A stretch of 64,000 nucleotides of DNA. Source: Crocinitomicaceae bacterium. Lineage in GTDB: Bacteria > Bacteroidota > Bacteroidia > Flavobacteriales_D > Crocinitomicaceae. Positions 5,168 through 13,865 of this stretch are shown here, piece after piece. Position 1 is the first letter of the stretch; every line of letters starts with the position of its first letter. The notes under the pieces were generated by a model. It was not told the origin of the DNA, ran no database searches, and saw only the letters and a program-made list of their open reading frames with translations. The position numbers and the translations under genes are program-made. The stretch spans positions 186,001 to 250,000 of the forward strand of contig PAQM01000006.1 of assembly GCA_002709305.1 (NCBI GenBank), written 5' to 3'.

Positions 5168-6133
5168 TCAGTATATCAAAATCTTACTAGAAATTGATTT
5201 TGAATCAGATTTAAAATTAATTGAATATATGCCTGGTTTATATTTTTCCATATTTAATTTACAAATTCCATTGACAAGACCTGATATAAGTTTTCTTCCT
5301 TGGAAATCATAAATAGTAAAGAATAATTCTTGACCAGATTGAATAACAAAATCACCTTGAGAGGGATTGGGAAAAAATCTTACATCTATATCTTTTAATT
5401 GATTTAAATTTTGTGTTTCAGAATGAATGACAGCAATTGCATCAAGATCGAAACCTCCAGTTTCAAACTCAGTTGGAAATGGATCATTTATGATGTTACC
5501 CTGACTATCAAATGAACCGTAAGTAGGGTCTATACTTCCTATCACATCAATTATTTTGACATGAGTTATATGATTAATATCTAAACCTATCAAACCGTCT
5601 AATTCTTCTAAATCAAATGGAGTACCATAATTATATCTGTATTTACCTGCTAGATTATGAATATATCTACAATCTGTATAAGTGAAATTTGTTGACTGGA
5701 TAACACTTGGTGTTTCACTAATCGAATTGAATCGAAAAAAATTAATTCCGTCTGAACTAACTTCTACAAAAGCTAACTCAATATAATTATCTGTAAAACC
5801 ATTTTCAAAAATTGCAAAATCAGGACCTATTCCATTAATTATGGGATTATTAAATGTTGCTATAGCCTCTCCTCCATCACCTAAAGAAATAACCTGCAAT
5901 CCAGTAGCAACTCCAATAGCGTGATTTTCTGAACCATGACTAGCTAATCCAGAACTTGGATTTAAAATATTCATAGGTCCTCTATTTACAATAACTTGTG
6001 AAGCCCAATCGATGATAATAGAAGAATCATAATGTATTGCTGTTGAACCAGGATTACCAGGAGCTGGAGCAAAAGATTGAGATTTTGAAAAAAATGATAC
6101 TAAAATTATAATACAGAATAAAAGTTTACTCAT
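5168..6133 (-). CDS. T9SS type A sorting domain-containing cell-surface protein of the B12 operon
   Basis: Signal peptide; SLGDGGEAIATFNNPIINGIGPDFAIFENGF; C-terminal FFPNPSQGDFVI...YKPGIYSINF...KILIY sorting domain; start overlaps the stop of the upstream gene. Confidence 0.82.
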   Translation of the reverse strand: MSKLLFCIIILVSFFSKSQSFAPAPGNPGSTAIHYDSSIIIDWASQVIVNRGPMNILNPSSGLASHGSENHAIGVATGLQVISLGDGGEAIATFNNPIINGIGPDFAIFENGFTDNYIELAFVEVSSDGINFFRFNSISETPSVIQSTNFTYTDCRYIHNLAGKYRYNYGTPFDLEELDGLIGLDINHITHVKIIDVIGSIDPTYGSFDSQGNIINDPFPTEFETGGFDLDAIAVIHSETQNLNQLKDIDVRFFPNPSQGDFVIQSGQELFFTIYDFQGRKLISGLVNGICKLNMEKYKPGIYSINFKSDSKSISSKILIY

Positions 6134-7181
6134 AAAAATGGAATTTAGATGGATTTAAACCAACATTATAACTTGAAATTAAAGAACCATTTGATGTATA
6201 TTCATATACATACCCTGAATTAACAAAATTCATTGCATCACTTATAAAAATAGTATTAGTAAATGAATTATAAGCAACTCCATAAAGAGTTGTAATATTT
6301 GATAAATCTATAGATAGATTATTGGTTACTTCATCCAGAAATGTATCAAATACTGATAAGCTGGAATAACCTGAAACATAATCATAATAAGTAATTAAAA
6401 ACATATCATTCATTTTAGAAATTCCGGTAATATCTAAATTAAAAACTGAGTCAACAATATTAGTATTTGAATTTACCTTTACTAAACATGAAGAGATATT
6501 TGAATAATCACCCCTAGAAATAACATACACATCCCCTTCACTATCTGTGACACATCTTCCAGGGTTTAATCCAACAGTTAATTTTTTAATTTCAGTATTA
6601 GTATTTAAGTCAATTATAGAGATTGTTGAATCCATTGATGGTAGACTAAGTCCACCCGAATTAGATACATATAATTTATCTCCTGAAATAGATAGATCTT
6701 CGGGATTTAATCCAACAGGTATCCTCTGAATTACTGATAAAGATGAGGTATCTATAACATCAACAAAACCATCAAAACAGGTTACATATGCATTTCCTTC
6801 AAAAAACTCAATATTTCTGGGTTGTTTAGAAAGACCTGAATTTTGCATTAATATTTGTTTTATTGGAGAAAATGTTTTCGCATCAACGACTTCAATTGTA
6901 CTAGAGAAATTTACAACAATATATATTTTAGAACCATATTTTTTTATGTCATTACCTGTATCTCCAAGATTTCTTCCACTTTTTTGCACAAATAAATTAT
7001 TATTGACACTCATAGAATTATTATCTATCCACGATAAAGATGAATTATTTTGTTGAAATAAACCTTCACATAGAACAACAGTGCCATTTGAAAGAAAATC
7101 AGGCAAAGAATTTTGTGAAACATCCTCTTTCTTACAAGAAAACAAAATAATTATTATACTCAAGATATTAATTAAACGCAT
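6126..7181 (-). CDS. YncE/DUF5074-like beta-propeller lipoprotein, BtuG-like candidate B12-binding surface protein
   Basis: Lipobox ILFSCKKED; repeated propeller blades (VDAKTFSPIKQI, IDTSSLSVIQRIPVGLNPEDLSI, IIDLNTNTEIKKLTVGLNPGRCV); overlaps the TonB receptor gene by 14 nt. Confidence 0.78.
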   Translation of the reverse strand: MRLINILSIIIILFSCKKEDVSQNSLPDFLSNGTVVLCEGLFQQNNSSLSWIDNNSMSVNNNLFVQKSGRNLGDTGNDIKKYGSKIYIVVNFSSTIEVVDAKTFSPIKQILMQNSGLSKQPRNIEFFEGNAYVTCFDGFVDVIDTSSLSVIQRIPVGLNPEDLSISGDKLYVSNSGGLSLPSMDSTISIIDLNTNTEIKKLTVGLNPGRCVTDSEGDVYVISRGDYSNISSCLVKVNSNTNIVDSVFNLDITGISKMNDMFLITYYDYVSGYSSLSVFDTFLDEVTNNLSIDLSNITTLYGVAYNSFTNTIFISDAMNFVNSGYVYEYTSNGSLISSYNVGLNPSKFHFYE

Positions 7182-9114
7182 AGCTTATATTTATAGAAAA
7201 ATTGATTCCAGGCATTGTATACGATCGAATATAGGCATATGAAGTATTTAATATATTTTTAACATTGAAAATAAATCTTAAATTCTGAGATTTTCTTATG
7301 TTAAGTTTTTTAAATACACTTAAATCCATTAAGAAAATTGGATTTAGATAATTAGATATTATGTTTTCATTTAAAGAATATCTTTTAGAAATAAAATAAT
7401 TAGATATTCGAAGTCCATTTTCCTTGTAATTTAAGGTTAAGTCAAAATTAAACATATGTTCTGGAGTATAAGCTATTTGATTTAAATAAGTTGGTGAATC
7501 TGAATTAGTAACATCAATCGATTTTTGATAAGTATAATTTGACATTAAAGTAATATTAAAATTATTAGAAAAATAATAATTTGTGTTAATTTGAATTTCG
7601 CCACCAAAAACATTTACACGACCAATATTTTGAAATGACCAAATAAATAAATTCTTAGTAGGAATTGCTAAAATCTTATTTTTAATTTGATTAAAATAAA
7701 TAGCAGTTTTGAAATCAAAAGAAATATTTTTCATTTCATCTACAAATAAAAAATCTAAATTAGTTTGATTAGCATTTTCAGGTAATAAATCGACATTCCC
7801 TATATTATTATAATATAACTCATTAAAACTAGGCATTCTAAAGGAATTACGATACCATAAATCCAATTGAGATTTTTTAGAAATCTTTCTAGTTTTCAAA
7901 CTTATAAAAGGATTAACTCTAAATATATTATTTGCTGCTACACCATTTTGATTAAGCTCGTTTATGTATTGTCCTGAAAGTTGAGTTGTAAAAGAAAAAA
8001 AATGATTATTAAATTTAACTCCAAACATAGAAGATGAAAAATTTCTAATTGGTTTAGCAAATGTTATATCATTTACTAACAAATCAGAAAATGTATAATC
8101 TAACCCACCATAAAGAAACCAATCATCAAAATAATTTATAAAAGAAATACCTGAATTTAAAGATCTATTTTTATAATGGTAATCTATAAATCCAATATTA
8201 TTTAAATATGTTGGATCATAATATCTTTGATTTTCTATAGATCCATTTATAAATGATCGAATAAAAAGTTTACCTATTTCATATTTAAAATCAGTAAATA
8301 ATCGATCAGACACAGTTTGCAAAGTTTCATCAGCAGTTTCATTGTATAAAATAACTGCACCAGGTAACTCTTGGTCAATTGATTTATGTTGATACCCTAT
8401 TTTCCATGTCCCATTAAAAATCTTAAGTCCTGAAGATATTCCAAAATTAAAATCAGAATATTTATTGTTTTTTCTTATTCTACTATTTTGATTTATTCCA
8501 TTTACAATTGAATATCTATAATTACCAACGGAATTTTGTTTTGAAAAAAAAGAACTAATGAAAAATTTGTTTGGATTATACTTAACCCCTAAATAACCTT
8601 TGTATTGCTCAAATGAACCATAATTAATATTCGAACGAATTGTAAGAGTGTCAATAGAAAAAGAATTTTCCATAGTATTTATAATGAAATTATTTCCTGC
8701 AATTTGTGTTGAAATTGGAAGTAAAAAGTTTGAGTTTAATCCTACAGTACTATTAACAGATTGAACATTATCAACAATTAATTGACCTAAATTAATTTGA
8801 CCAGTTTGTGAGTTATGTAATTGAAAACCATCCACAACTATTGAAGAGTGATTAGAACCCAAACCTCTCATTGAAACTGTTTTCAACCCACCTAAACCAC
8901 CATATGATCTTAAATAAGTTCCAGGAAATTTTCTTAATAGATCACCTATGTCAGTTGGTTGAATAATATTTATTTCATTTCTTTCTAAGAGGTTGTGCTT
9001 TGAAAGCGTTATTCTTGAAAGAATATTAATCTCATCAATGTTTTGAATTGAATCAATTTGCCCAAATAATCTTGAGGTAATAAAAAAAAGTAATATATAG
9101 TGATATTTAACCAT
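7168..9114 (-). CDS. TonB-dependent receptor, BtuB-like (vitamin B12 uptake)
   Basis: IGDLLRKFPGTYLRSYGGLGGLKTVSMRGLGSNHSSIVVDGFQLHNSQTGQINLGQL plug domain; C-terminal beta-barrel; operon context with cobalamin riboswitch. Confidence 0.88.
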   Translation of the reverse strand: MVKYHYILLFFITSRLFGQIDSIQNIDEINILSRITLSKHNLLERNEINIIQPTDIGDLLRKFPGTYLRSYGGLGGLKTVSMRGLGSNHSSIVVDGFQLHNSQTGQINLGQLIVDNVQSVNSTVGLNSNFLLPISTQIAGNNFIINTMENSFSIDTLTIRSNINYGSFEQYKGYLGVKYNPNKFFISSFFSKQNSVGNYRYSIVNGINQNSRIRKNNKYSDFNFGISSGLKIFNGTWKIGYQHKSIDQELPGAVILYNETADETLQTVSDRLFTDFKYEIGKLFIRSFINGSIENQRYYDPTYLNNIGFIDYHYKNRSLNSGISFINYFDDWFLYGGLDYTFSDLLVNDITFAKPIRNFSSSMFGVKFNNHFFSFTTQLSGQYINELNQNGVAANNIFRVNPFISLKTRKISKKSQLDLWYRNSFRMPSFNELYYNNIGNVDLLPENANQTNLDFLFVDEMKNISFDFKTAIYFNQIKNKILAIPTKNLFIWSFQNIGRVNVFGGEIQINTNYYFSNNFNITLMSNYTYQKSIDVTNSDSPTYLNQIAYTPEHMFNFDLTLNYKENGLRISNYFISKRYSLNENIISNYLNPIFLMDLSVFKKLNIRKSQNLRFIFNVKNILNTSYAYIRSYTMPGINFSINISYAFN

Positions 9115-9115
9115 T

Positions 9116-9141
9116 AAAAAAGGGGGGAAATAATGCCCCCC
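9116..9141 (-). terminator. Terminator-like / attenuator hairpin between the DUF4465 gene and the BtuB-like gene
   Basis: - strand GGGGGG-CATTATTT-CCCCCC-TTTTTT, directly upstream of the ATG at 9114. Confidence 0.7.
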
Positions 9142-9147
9142 AATTTG

Positions 9148-10134
9148 TTATTTTATAATTTTTCTGGAAAAATTACCCTTATCATTAATAATACTTATGA
9201 TATATACACCTTTATCTAAAAATGACATATCAATAGTAGAAAGAAAATCATGATTTTGTTTTAAAATAACATTTCCATTTAAATTAGTTAATATAAGTAA
9301 TCCTTCTTCACCTTTAACATTTAAAATATCATTAAAAGGGTTTGGATAAAAAGATACTTGATTTAGAGTATTTTCGTTTCCAGTGGTTGATAAGTTAAAA
9401 TCAGACATAATATTATCTATAACATAATACGCTGGTGTATTCATTCCCCATTCACCATTATCGCTAGATTCTTGAGTAAAAGTAATTTTACTGACAGGAA
9501 AACTAATTTGTTGATTAATATCTACAGTGATCCAATCTTTAACAATATAATCTTGTGAGTTATCATTAAATCGATAATCAGCCAAAAGCACTTCAATACT
9601 ATCTAAATATGTGCCTGAAAAATCTTCACAATAAAGCCAAATACGATAAAAATCTTCACCATTTGTCCCATCCACCATTCCGCTTGCATCTAAAGGAGAT
9701 CCAAACTGTTTAGCAAACTGATCACCATCTCTCATTGATATTGCAGTATATGTAGCGTTCGTTATTTTAAGACTTACAATTGATTCAAACTGGTTAGAAC
9801 AAGAAATCGAACCTGTTTTATAACCAACAGCATAGTTTGATGAACCACCAAACCCTTCACCTGCAAATGAACTATATTGATTACTATATCCTGGAGTGGT
9901 TGTATCAGTCATGTTTGATATAGAATAGCCAGACCAACTTTGCCATGTAGTATCATAGGAGTTTGAAAGACTAATTTCATTCGATTGAGAACCAAAAATA
10001 AAATCACCATTCCCGGATGATCCATTGTCATAAGATTCAACATTTAAATTAAAAGATTCAAAATCAATTAATTGTTGAGATTGTAATGCTAGTGATAGCA
10101 TTAAAAAAATTAATGATAAGTAGTTTTTTTTCAT
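9148..10134 (-). CDS. DUF4465 domain-containing, T9SS type A sorting domain protein (first gene after the cobalamin riboswitch)
   Basis: WQSWSGYSISNMTDTTTPGYSNQYSSFAGEGFGGSSNYAVGY..., C-terminal VSFYPNPFNDILNV...LDKGVYIISI sorting domain. Confidence 0.83.
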   Translation of the reverse strand: MKKNYLSLIFLMLSLALQSQQLIDFESFNLNVESYDNGSSGNGDFIFGSQSNEISLSNSYDTTWQSWSGYSISNMTDTTTPGYSNQYSSFAGEGFGGSSNYAVGYKTGSISCSNQFESIVSLKITNATYTAISMRDGDQFAKQFGSPLDASGMVDGTNGEDFYRIWLYCEDFSGTYLDSIEVLLADYRFNDNSQDYIVKDWITVDINQQISFPVSKITFTQESSDNGEWGMNTPAYYVIDNIMSDFNLSTTGNENTLNQVSFYPNPFNDILNVKGEEGLLILTNLNGNVILKQNHDFLSTIDMSFLDKGVYIISIINDKGNFSRKIIK

Positions 10135-10149
10135 TTTAAAAAATTTTTA

Positions 10150-10170
10150 ATAAATAAATAAATAAATAAT
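10150..10170. repeat. Tetranucleotide simple repeat (TAAA)n
   Basis: ataaataaataaataaataat just upstream of the ATG at 10134. Confidence 0.7.
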
Positions 10171-10269
10171 CAAAAAGAAAACAAATAGATTATGTACCTT
10201 TTTTTTAAAGGTTAATTTTAATTAGTCACAAAAATAAATTCAACTTTAATCTGAAGCTTTCTTTATATT

Positions 10270-10424
10270 AAACTTTGGCAAGTATTCTGACTTACATCTT
10301 ATCAATCCTCCTTCCCATTTGCGAAAACAGTGGATAAATGAATTGACTTTTAATGTTTACAGCTGCAGATACAGTTTTGGAGTTACACCAAATTCCTTAT
10401 TAATCATTAAATGAACCAAAATTC
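10270..10424 (-). promoter_or_regulatory. Cobalamin riboswitch
   Basis: - strand: ATTTTGGTTC...AAGGAATTTGGTGTAACTCCAAAACTGTATCTGCAGCTGTAAA...CCACTGTTTTCGCAAATGGGAAGGAGGATTGATAAGATGTAAGTCAGAATACTTGCCAAAG; conserved GGTG-AA-TCC, CCACTG, GGGAAGG and the B12-box-like AGTCAGAATACTTGCC, with closing P1 (ATTTTGG/CCAAAGT). Confidence 0.93.
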
Positions 10425-10445
10425 AATACGAAAATAAACAAAAAA

Positions 10446-12863
10446 TTAATTTCTATCTAATTTATAAGTGTATTGTAACATTATCGTTCTTGGTTGCTCA
10501 ATTTTTAAAGGGCGAAGTGAATATGTTCGATTTGCAACATTTGCACTTATAAAAGCAAGTTTATGCATTGGATTTATACTATATGATAATCGTATATCAA
10601 AAATCCAATTACCGTTTCTACGAGAATTATAAAAATCCATATATTCAATATTTTGAATATATGATAAATCTTGAGTTAATTCTTCAAAATCTTGTATTAC
10701 AAGATCCATATTTTCTATTTTACTAAAGTATTTTACACTAACTCCAAGTGAAATTTTATTTGCTAAATTAAATTCAATATCTCCTTTTAAATTATGAAGA
10801 AATCTATATTTTAAAATTTGTCTTGAAGGATTTAATGAAGTAGTATTGTAACTGTATTCTTTATCATAATAAACAGTGTCTTCAGCATATACGTAATCTG
10901 GAGATAATGATTTAGGAATGATATAATTATATCCTGTTATAAAAGTAATATCTAGCTTTTTTCCAATTTTTGCCTTTCCAGTAAATGACGCATCTATACC
11001 CAAAACCCTCGATTCTCCAGTATTCATAAATCTGAAACCTGCAAAATTTGAAGGATTTGATCCATCACCCCAAAAACCAAAAGTATATTCAATTGTATTT
11101 TGGTATTCCTGCCAGAAACCAGCCAAATCTATATATCCATATATTTTACCTAGCTTAATACCTTGTTTAATACCAATTTCAGCATTCCAACTAGTTTCGG
11201 GTTTTAAATATGGGTTGGGAAAAACTCCAAAATTACCAACACCTGTTCTTATGAAACGTTCTGTGATGGTTGGAAACCTATAACCTTGACCATAAGAAGC
11301 CCTTAAATATGTTTCTTGGTATATTTTAATACTAGTACCTGCTCTAAAAATTGGCTTTAAAGCAGTTATGGAATCATTCAATTGAAAATACTCTAACCTA
11401 CCACCTAAAGATAAATTAATAGTGTTTTTTACTTTTTTTTCCAACTGAGTATAAGCTGATATATTTAGTAATTGATTATTTGGGCTACCTGAACCAACAT
11501 ACATATTAGCATATGAATTAGTAAAAGTACCTGTAATACCTCCAAAAAAATCTAAATCAGATAAATTTTTATATCTCTTTTTAAACATATAATCTCCATA
11601 ATAAGTAATAGCCTTATTAGATTGATTAGCTGTCATTTGATTATTAGAATATAATAAACGAGACTTGAAAGAATGTTTTCCATTAGATTGAGTGAAAAAA
11701 TTAATATATGGGTCGATATTAAATATAAGTTGATCTTGAAGAAATACAGCACCTGGATAGGCTCTAAATAAGTCAGATGAATCACCTAACCATGCAAATG
11801 TCATATTAGCACTTGACAACATAATATTACCATTAACTCCACTACTAAGACCTTTATATTTCTTAGATCTATGGCGTATATTAAAATTAATTCTAGCTCT
11901 TTTAGATGACATTTGACTTTCATTAAAATTTGATACAGTATCTGGCGAAAGACCATTTGCAACAATGGAATCTTCAATAGGTGGTCCTATATAACCATGA
12001 TCATAATTAAAATTTCCACCAATAACTAAATCTAAATTTTTTATCATTCTCGAATGCAAAAAATTAACACCAGAAATTAAAGGTAAATTATCCCACCACA
12101 AAGCATCTTTCTCACTAGGATTAGAATATAAACCCGAATAAAAATTAACTTTAGTTTTAGGTTTTAATTTTGGATAAGCTGTTCTAATATGAATTGATCC
12201 CGAAAGAGCTGAGCTACCTGACAAAACAGAAGCAGCACCCTTAATAACTTCAATCTGATGAATATTTTCTACAGGGATAAAACCCCATTCGGGCCTACCT
12301 GCATCTCCTGACAACATAGGCATATCATCAACAATTACAGCAACCTTAGACCCCACTCCAAATGTAAAGCCTGAACCACCTCTTATTTGAGGTTCACCAT
12401 CTAATATATTTAAACCTGGTGTTTGATCTAATGCTGTTTCAATACTTCTAGTATTCTTATTTTCAATTAACTCTGGCTTAATAATTTCCATAGAAACAGT
12501 TTGATCCTCCAAAGATTTATCAAACTTACCTACTTTAACATCTATAACTTCGATTTCCTGAACATAAGATTTTAAAACAAAATTATGAGTAACTATACTA
12601 TTTTCAATGACTGTAACATATATAGTATCAGTTATCATACCAGAGTAACGACATATAATCATTGATCTATTAGCAGGGATATCTAACTCATAATTACCTA
12701 ATTCGTTAGTGTGTGCACCTATAGTTATGTCTTTTTTAAAAATTACAGAAGCACCCATTATAGGCTCACCTTTACTATCTATTACTTTTCCTATAACTTT
12801 TCCATTTTGAGCAAAAGAAATAAAAGAAACAAGAGATAAAAAAATATAAATGCAATACTTCAT
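10446..12863 (-). CDS. TonB-dependent receptor with N-terminal carboxypeptidase-regulatory-like domain
   Basis: GKVIGKVIDSKGEPIMGASVIFKKDITIGAHTNELGNYELDIP; plug QIRGGSGFTFGVGSKVAVIVDDMPMLSGD...EVIKGAASVLSGSSALSGSIHI; barrel C-terminus. Confidence 0.92.
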   Translation of the reverse strand: MKYCIYIFLSLVSFISFAQNGKVIGKVIDSKGEPIMGASVIFKKDITIGAHTNELGNYELDIPANRSMIICRYSGMITDTIYVTVIENSIVTHNFVLKSYVQEIEVIDVKVGKFDKSLEDQTVSMEIIKPELIENKNTRSIETALDQTPGLNILDGEPQIRGGSGFTFGVGSKVAVIVDDMPMLSGDAGRPEWGFIPVENIHQIEVIKGAASVLSGSSALSGSIHIRTAYPKLKPKTKVNFYSGLYSNPSEKDALWWDNLPLISGVNFLHSRMIKNLDLVIGGNFNYDHGYIGPPIEDSIVANGLSPDTVSNFNESQMSSKRARINFNIRHRSKKYKGLSSGVNGNIMLSSANMTFAWLGDSSDLFRAYPGAVFLQDQLIFNIDPYINFFTQSNGKHSFKSRLLYSNNQMTANQSNKAITYYGDYMFKKRYKNLSDLDFFGGITGTFTNSYANMYVGSGSPNNQLLNISAYTQLEKKVKNTINLSLGGRLEYFQLNDSITALKPIFRAGTSIKIYQETYLRASYGQGYRFPTITERFIRTGVGNFGVFPNPYLKPETSWNAEIGIKQGIKLGKIYGYIDLAGFWQEYQNTIEYTFGFWGDGSNPSNFAGFRFMNTGESRVLGIDASFTGKAKIGKKLDITFITGYNYIIPKSLSPDYVYAEDTVYYDKEYSYNTTSLNPSRQILKYRFLHNLKGDIEFNLANKISLGVSVKYFSKIENMDLVIQDFEELTQDLSYIQNIEYMDFYNSRRNGNWIFDIRLSYSINPMHKLAFISANVANRTYSLRPLKIEQPRTIMLQYTYKLDRN

Positions 12864-12869
12864 ACAGAC

Positions 12870-12896
12870 AAAAGGGTCGTACTAAAAATACGACCC
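12870..12896 (-). terminator. Terminator-like hairpin between a T9SS-protein gene and the TonB receptor gene
   Basis: - strand GGGTCGTA-TTTTTAG-TACGACCC-TTTT, perfect 8-bp stem, 10 nt upstream of the ATG at 12863. Confidence 0.65.
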
Positions 12897-12923
12897 AAAC
12901 AATAATTTTAATTATTAATAATT

Positions 12924-13865
12924 TTAATTTTTGAAAATTTCAAATGAATATACTTTATTATTAGCATTTAAATGCACAAAATAAATACCCGGTTCTTTTT
13001 CAAAACAGACTGTATTAGAGATTTCTCCAGATTGAACAATCTGTCCAACAGAATTATAAACTTTGTATACCCCATTTAAATCAATTTTTGAATTGAAATA
13101 TATTTGATTTGTAAAATTATCTATTGAAACATTAATATCATCTGAAGATATAAGATTTTCTATATTATTTGAGTTGTATATTAATTCAATATCATCTATT
13201 AATACCTCATCATTATCATTTCCTTGTCCACCAACCTCATTAGTAGTAAATGTAACTAAAATATAAGCATTATCTGTTGCTGGTCCAGAATAATTAAAGG
13301 CAATAGAGTGACGCTCCCAATTACCTTGAGTAGAAGGATAATTATCAACTGCTGTTGCTACAACCGCTGAAGAAGAAGATGCATCTTCAGGATCTCTATA
13401 ATCATAATCTGTATGAAGTGTTGCTTTCATTCTAGCATTTCCATTACCACCATTTGGAGTAAATTTAACCCAATAAACAATTGAATCTGGTTTATCAGTT
13501 AAAGCTTGAGAAAAATTTGAATTTCCAGTTACTGTTTTATTATAATTATCAGAGCTAGTAGGATTTGTACTTCCCATATGAATTCTACCTAATGTAACAT
13601 TACCATTTGCAACAGTTCCTAGGACAGCGTTAGAAAATATACGACAACTTTTTGTACCATTTGAACCTGGTCTAGTTTCAGAGGATGGTTCACATTGATC
13701 GCCGGCAAAAGCGGACCAAGTTCCATTTGCAGATAAAAAACTATTCCAGTTATCAGGTTCATCATTAGATGACCAAGATTCCATATCACCATTATCAATT
13801 TGTCCCTGAGATAAAGATGCAAAAACAATTATAAGTGAAAATGTAAAAAGTAAAATTTTTTTCAT
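12924..13865 (-). CDS. T9SS type A sorting domain-containing secreted protein
   Basis: Signal peptide; GQIDNGDMESWSSNDEPDNWNSF...; VLIDDIELIYN; C-terminal GVYKVYNSVGQIVQSGEIS...EPGIYFVHLNANNKVYSFEIFKN. Confidence 0.8.
   Translation of the reverse strand: MKKILLFTFSLIIVFASLSQGQIDNGDMESWSSNDEPDNWNSFLSANGTWSAFAGDQCEPSSETRPGSNGTKSCRIFSNAVLGTVANGNVTLGRIHMGSTNPTSSDNYNKTVTGNSNFSQALTDKPDSIVYWVKFTPNGGNGNARMKATLHTDYDYRDPEDASSSSAVVATAVDNYPSTQGNWERHSIAFNYSGPATDNAYILVTFTTNEVGGQGNDNDEVLIDDIELIYNSNNIENLISSDDINVSIDNFTNQIYFNSKIDLNGVYKVYNSVGQIVQSGEISNTVCFEKEPGIYFVHLNANNKVYSFEIFKN

Follow-up and report, generated by a model that had tools for sequence, protein, structure and literature searches.

Partial intercistronic terminators or hairpins of the malE-malF type, placed between a binding-protein gene and transporter genes, allow one operon to yield the binding protein in excess. 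For surface capture proteins, BtuH and HmuY among them, an excess over the receptor is likewise believed to be necessary, and the means of achieving this from one operon are known in few species. Here we describe two junctions in a 64,000-nucleotide (nt) stretch of a Crocinitomicaceae genome (GCA_002709305.1, contig PAQM01000006.1, positions 186,001 to 250,000; hereafter the window), at each of which a terminator-like hairpin stands between a gene for a T9SS-type cargo (T9SS, type IX secretion system) and a gene for a TonB-dependent receptor (TBDT). Unlike the malE-malF type, these junctions concern the outer membrane, with a T9SS cargo and a TBDT as the two partners, and at one of them (junction A) many species have a promoter box joined directly to the stem. 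HmuY of Porphyromonas gingivalis is a lipoprotein and differs in this from the T9SS cargo described here.

The closest described system is the haem locus hmuY-hmuR of P. gingivalis, where a surface capture-protein gene also precedes a TBDT gene; monocistronic hmuY mRNA exceeds the bicistronic hmuY-hmuR mRNA there, as reported in PMC9331221, and we would expect a similar excess of capture mRNA at our junctions. A stem-loop in the same hmu operon was proposed as a modulator of hmuS (PMC3764172). In the hfpR-hfpY operon of Flavobacterium psychrophilum hfpY also exceeds hfpR (PMC9331221), again as we would expect of capture and receptor mRNA here, but the gene order is reversed and the excess is ascribed to RNA maturation. 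A further likeness is to the Bacteroides B12 loci (btuB, btuG, btuH), which bring together a DUF4465 protein, BtuB, a beta-propeller and a cobalamin riboswitch (PMC8941943; PMC10404256). DUF4465 has been established by experiment as a B12-binding domain (PMC13398666; BtuH, PMC8941943), and in Bacteroides BtuB and BtuG form a stable complex, with BtuH as a separate binder of slow release (PMC10404256). In contrast to those loci, the DUF4465 protein in the window bears a T9SS sorting domain and is encoded first, with a hairpin between its gene and btuB. In the literature searched we found no description of a conserved, covarying hairpin at the hmuY-hmuR junction, and no direct description of such hairpin junctions in TBDT operons. 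The principle of unequal capture and receptor expression is already known from hmuY-hmuR; the conserved cis-architecture is a new form of it. A conserved, covarying intercistronic terminator would offer a cis-element recognizable in sequence and open to mutational tests.

Two hairpin junctions between cargo and receptor genes

Both junctions lie on the minus strand, junction A between cargo A and receptor A and junction B between cargo B and a BtuB-like receptor. Their features are listed with the evidence for each (CTD, C-terminal domain):

12924-13865 (-): cargo A, 313 aa, with a signal peptide, a jelly-roll resembling carbohydrate-binding modules (CBMs) and PCMD, and a probable C-terminal T9SS sorting domain (profile and fold searches)
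12874-12896 (-): hairpin A, terminator-like, stem GGGTCGTA/TACGACCC (sequence, conservation, covariation)
12870-12873 (-): U-tract of hairpin A, TTTT then GTCTGT (sequence)
10446-12863 (-): TonB-dependent receptor A, 805 aa (PF00593, PF07715, PF13715)
9148-10134 (-): cargo B, DUF4465 domain and T9SS CTD, BtuH-like predicted B12-binding surface protein (PF14717, 4.6e-43; PF18962, 6.2e-11)
9122-9141 (-): hairpin B, terminator-like, stem GGGGGG/CCCCCC, 6 pairs (sequence, conservation)
9116-9121 (-): U-tract of hairpin B, T6, 1 nt ahead of the receptor ATG (sequence)
7168-9114 (-): BtuB-like TonB-dependent receptor, 648 aa (PF07715)

Hairpin A, in the order GGGTCGTA-loop-TACGACCC, has 8 Watson-Crick pairs (10 when the inner T-G and T-A are counted) and is followed by TTTTGTCTGT and then the receptor ATG at 12863, 10 nt past the stem. 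Hairpin B reads GGGGGG-CATTATTT-CCCCCC, followed by TTTTTT, a single A and the receptor ATG at 9114, 7 nt past the stem. An earlier note on this DNA had placed hairpins at these two sites, the one at A with an 8-bp stem, each between a T9SS-type cargo and a TBDT gene. Our analysis confirms the positions, the stem length and both downstream genes as TBDTs; the sorting domain is matched by PF18962 in cargo B and suggested by the family profile in cargo A.

We favour, with moderate confidence, the reading that the hairpins are intercistronic intrinsic terminators giving capture protein in excess over receptor. The hairpin, the U-tract, their position and their conservation with compensatory change are read directly from the sequence, and from these we infer termination in the cell and the ratio of cargo to receptor. 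Each hairpin would end most capture-gene transcripts, providing abundant capture-protein mRNA, and a minority of transcripts would serve the receptor.

Conservation and pairing in relatives

Orthologous junctions were drawn first from about 60 loci of the family and afterwards from the entire source genus (GTDB UBA4466-like, Crocinitomicaceae), the comparisons covering about 30 relatives. Fluviicola, Brumimicrobium and Lishizhenia, relatives present by name in the genome collection, agree with the assignment to Crocinitomicaceae, and one member of the genus is named UBA4466. The data are genome sequences, many of them metagenome-assembled, with predicted start codons, and all that is said here of termination is read from them; the U-tract criterion is our own definition. 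Within the genus, a hairpin with U-tract was found in 29 of 31 orthologues of junction A and 18 of 29 of junction B, related species being non-independent observations in these and all other junction counts. The exceptions at A are L226, where the hairpin is intact and the tail interrupted, and L230, where it is degenerate; B junctions lacking the hairpin mostly have overlapping genes or genes within a few nt of each other. Chance levels were taken from dinucleotide shuffles of the same junctions, which are independent of alignment. Across the family, junction A carries the element in 28/41 loci compared with 2.3/41 in shuffles, and junction B in 16/41 compared with 1.2/41. Further genus members gave 12/13 at A (1.0 expected) and 6/11 at B (0.4 expected), and shuffles of the window's own A and B junctions yield a hairpin with U-tract at about 0.03-0.07. 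Beyond the genus, the hairpin of junction A turns up again in two or three other genera, and in many genera the gap is short and lacks a hairpin. The same architecture was ruled out for other families of the order, where the DUF4465 gene is not directly 5' of a TBDT gene.

Stems are often entirely different between species. Two stem lineages could be aligned, in which 56/56 and 80/80 cells pair (in the second alignment the arms served as anchors and the loop was blanked out, a treatment that favours structure), with two-sided changes at 2/8 and 5/10 pairs, respectively; pair 4 of the GGGTCGTA lineage presents the series T-A, T-G, C-G. As a control, sliding the partners by 1-3 columns left 30-53% of cells paired. 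The observed covariation score was reached by 0/500 shuffles in the second lineage and by 25/500 in the first, which has little variation. The comparison thus supports an element that is conserved in position, divergent in sequence and covarying, and the hallmarks of an intrinsic terminator are present in sequence: a GC-containing stem, a U-tract directly after it and pairing upheld by compensatory change. A copied repeat is ruled out, as stems A and B are unrelated in sequence and are replaced from species to species. The earlier note had taken the unrelated stems as a sign of functional architecture rather than of a copied repeat, and had named missing conservation or covariation at orthologous junctions as the finding that would speak against this; both are present, and its view is borne out.

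Background rates come from about 411 kb of the source genome, namely the window and 20 further stretches, a non-random sample picked to include CTD and TBDT loci. Among the 74 codirectional gaps in this sample that measure 25-99 nt, 8 contain a hairpin with U-tract. It is present at 3 of the 4 CTD-to-TBDT junctions, all with gaps in this range, compared with 5 of 70 other junctions (p = 0.003); for hairpins no more than 20 nt from the ATG, the figures are 3/4 and 1/70 (p = 0.0002). The third such junction lies elsewhere in the same genome (contig C24, L182:8515-12071, minus strand), where the gene of an HmuY-like T9SS-CTD protein is followed by the hairpin AAAAACAACAAAATC...GATTTTGTTGTTTTT and, 15 nt on, by a TBDT gene.

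Spacing, promoter box and competing explanations

Three further features of the two operons are needed at this point:

12896-12904 (-): degenerate -7-like box TATTGTTTG, abutting stem A (motif comparison with orthologues)
10260-10435 (-): cobalamin riboswitch, 5' of cargo B and between the two operons (RF00174, 96.9 bits)
6126-7181 (-): DUF5074/YVTN beta-propeller, putatively BtuG-like (PF16819, 9.6e-11, over the cut-off; TIGR02276 YVTN repeats)

The geometry of the two junctions, which the earlier note had called identical, is so only in part. In both the hairpin stands close before the ATG (stem-to-ATG in the genus 13 nt at A and 6 nt at B, mostly 4-17 nt), but the distance from stop codon to stem is 27 nt at A and 6 nt at B in the window. 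Genus-wide, this distance is 15-30 nt at A (median 23) and mostly 3-13 nt at B (median 7). In Escherichia coli, a terminator a few bp past the stop codon is nearly abolished by the ribosome, and termination is maximal beyond 27-30 nt (PMC4824070). If transcription and translation are coupled in Bacteroidota, this rule predicts a leaky B and a tight A.

At B, the ribosome finishing the cargo would partly block the stem some 6 nt past the stop codon and so make the terminator leaky, with the receptor and the overlapping propeller supplied by read-through of the riboswitch-controlled transcript. The B receptor would depend on read-through, since this junction shows no promoter box: TAnnTTTG, which serves as the sigma-A -7 box in Bacteroidota (PMC6847099; PMC9723704), lies within 60 nt of stem B in 0/22 cases, and a promoter there was ruled out. 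The BtuH-like protein would be made in excess, and BtuB and the propeller would stay together; the start of the propeller gene overlaps the end of btuB by 14 nt, an overlap 3' of hairpin B that we count in favour of a terminator. At A, the stem would be clear of the ribosome at the stop codon and the stop more efficient.

Junction A has a second distinguishing feature in its relatives. A perfect TAnnTTTG abuts stem A in 13/29 genus orthologues, over several unrelated stems, and permuted or altered motifs do so in at most 1/29. The motif is enriched 5' of genes in the source genome (50 compared with 10-34 for altered motifs); as a general terminator feature it was ruled out, being found at 0/34 other terminators of that genome. 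No -33 element is visible at junction A, and in Flavobacterium johnsoniae this element is weak too (PMC6847099). A box at -12 to -5 would place the predicted start at stem nt 5-7 and leave a leader of 30-46 nt, a length of 5' untranslated region (UTR) that is normal for the phylum (PMC9723704). The hairpin left after such a start is predicted at -3 to -12 kcal/mol compared with -14 to -21 for the full one, and is detached from the U-tract. We tentatively propose, as a possibility short of an even chance, that junction A is a composite promoter-terminator. In many relatives the -7 box ends at the first base of the stem, and receptor RNA would begin about 5 nt inside the 5' arm; lacking the outer pairs beside the U-tract, it would escape termination, and capture-gene RNA with the whole stem would stop. 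The A receptor may then draw on both read-through and its own start. If true, one element of 25-40 nt would insulate the receptor from the capture gene and start the receptor independently, despite complete replacement of the stem sequence.

The shared strategy for expressing cargo and receptor that the earlier note had suggested holds insofar as cargo over receptor would best explain both junctions. A and B are not the same device, however, because B belongs to a riboswitch operon with no promoter box, and A lies farther from the stop codon and is fused to the box in many relatives. This contrast gives two separable predictions, one for a hairpin far from the stop codon with a promoter box and one for a hairpin near it with the riboswitch only.

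Several observations weigh against terminators that set the ratio of capture protein to receptor. About one third of the genus and most other genera have lost hairpin B or have overlapping genes in its place, and the system therefore functions without it. In the source-genome sample, 9 of 10 CTD genes with a codirectional gap of at least 50 nt end in a terminator hairpin; default gene ends may account for part of the pattern, and it is therefore the position before the receptor ATG, not the terminator itself, that is special. The tight form of the HmuY-like junction is not kept in relatives, where the terminator stands 78-91 nt off or is missing, or the gap extends to several hundred nt, and we ruled it out as a conserved case. 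The argument from ribosome leakage presupposes transcription-translation coupling in Bacteroidota, and the window's own box at junction A is imperfect (TATTGTTTG), with no exact TAnnTTTG.

Some of these points favour other explanations. Junction A could be an ordinary complete terminator overlapping an independent receptor promoter, in which case the genes would be tightly packed separate units with no read-through ratio. The frequency with which TAnnTTTG abuts stem A and no other terminator, the leader lengths and the terminators that mostly end CTD genes with larger gaps all agree with this; we nevertheless consider it unlikely, since it is impossible for B, a riboswitch operon with no box, and since at A in the window the box is imperfect and the -33 element not visible. 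In another scheme, the whole operon would be transcribed and an RNase would cut or trim it, the hairpin being a 3' stabiliser or processing product that protects the cargo mRNA. A hairpin of equal position and stability would suffice for this, and the hfpY excess in F. psychrophilum arises through RNA maturation and not from a second promoter (PMC9331221). The U-tract directly past the stem, however, is kept in 29/31 A junctions despite the changes of stem, and it is needed for termination, not for protection, which makes this scheme improbable.

To two more explanations we give very little credence. That the hairpin belongs to the receptor-mRNA leader and limits ribosome access to the ATG would suit its usual end 4-17 nt ahead of the ATG, and structure at the start codon does reduce initiation in F. 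johnsoniae (PMC6847099); yet the hairpin leaves the ATG uncovered, and the conserved parts are the stem and U-tract rather than pairing of the start region. It is also most improbable that the hairpins have no role in expression and are default gene ends compressed by genome compaction. The genome is small (2.3 Mb) and terminators are common 3' of CTD genes, but a complete terminator at B would silence the B12 receptor, the tight spacing of hairpin and ATG is concentrated at CTD-to-TBDT junctions, and about 30 species retain the hairpins and their pairing. We thus retain intercistronic termination as the preferred reading.

Cargo proteins and the B12 operon

Cargo A gives no family in a Pfam search and scores marginally against TIGR04183 (22.2 bits, cut-off 23). 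Its family profile matches gingipain CTD chains (4e-4), and one orthologue (L122) matches PCMD (PF13201) below that family's cut-off. In fold searches with an AlphaFold model built from 32 orthologues (pLDDT 84), the best PDB match was 3hbz (Bacteroides BT_2081, a putative glycoside hydrolase), with CBMs next, and the CTD structure 5ag8 also appears. For cargo B the matches are to PF14717 at 148 bits (cut-off 25) and to the type A sorting domain PF18962 at 42.9 bits. Both cargos look like secreted jelly-roll ligand binders. Subfamily-level matches of receptor A are weak and mixed; the best curated match of the BtuB-like receptor is TIGR01779 (TonB-B12), at 86.5 bits below the cut-off of 599.7.

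The cobalamin riboswitch, kept in scanned relatives that possess cargo B, is the ground for assigning operon B to B12 uptake. On its sequence, operon B is a riboswitch-headed operon of a DUF4465 (BtuH-like) gene, the hairpin, a BtuB-like receptor, a propeller putatively of the seven-bladed BtuG type and a last gene:

5168-6133 (-): T9SS-CTD protein encoded by the final gene of operon B, lacking further known domains (PF18962, 2.1e-9)

Most members of the genus share the gene order of the block at 6126-13865 (cargo A, TBDT A, riboswitch, DUF4465, BtuB, propeller), a hint that system A may likewise serve B12 or another cobamide. The protein encoded by the final gene of operon B is a candidate additional B12 surface protein.

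Two further variations were seen among relatives. The L113 assembly has the DUF4465 gene broken into two open frames and lacks a hairpin at junction B. In genus g18 (L120, L123, L126-L129 and L142), orthologues of cargo A are larger, at about 520-634 aa, and the hairpin is kept; L128, the enlarged orthologue that was checked, contains Ig/cadherin-like repeats. In other g18 members the cargo A gene is short and the junction measures 7 nt, with no hairpin.

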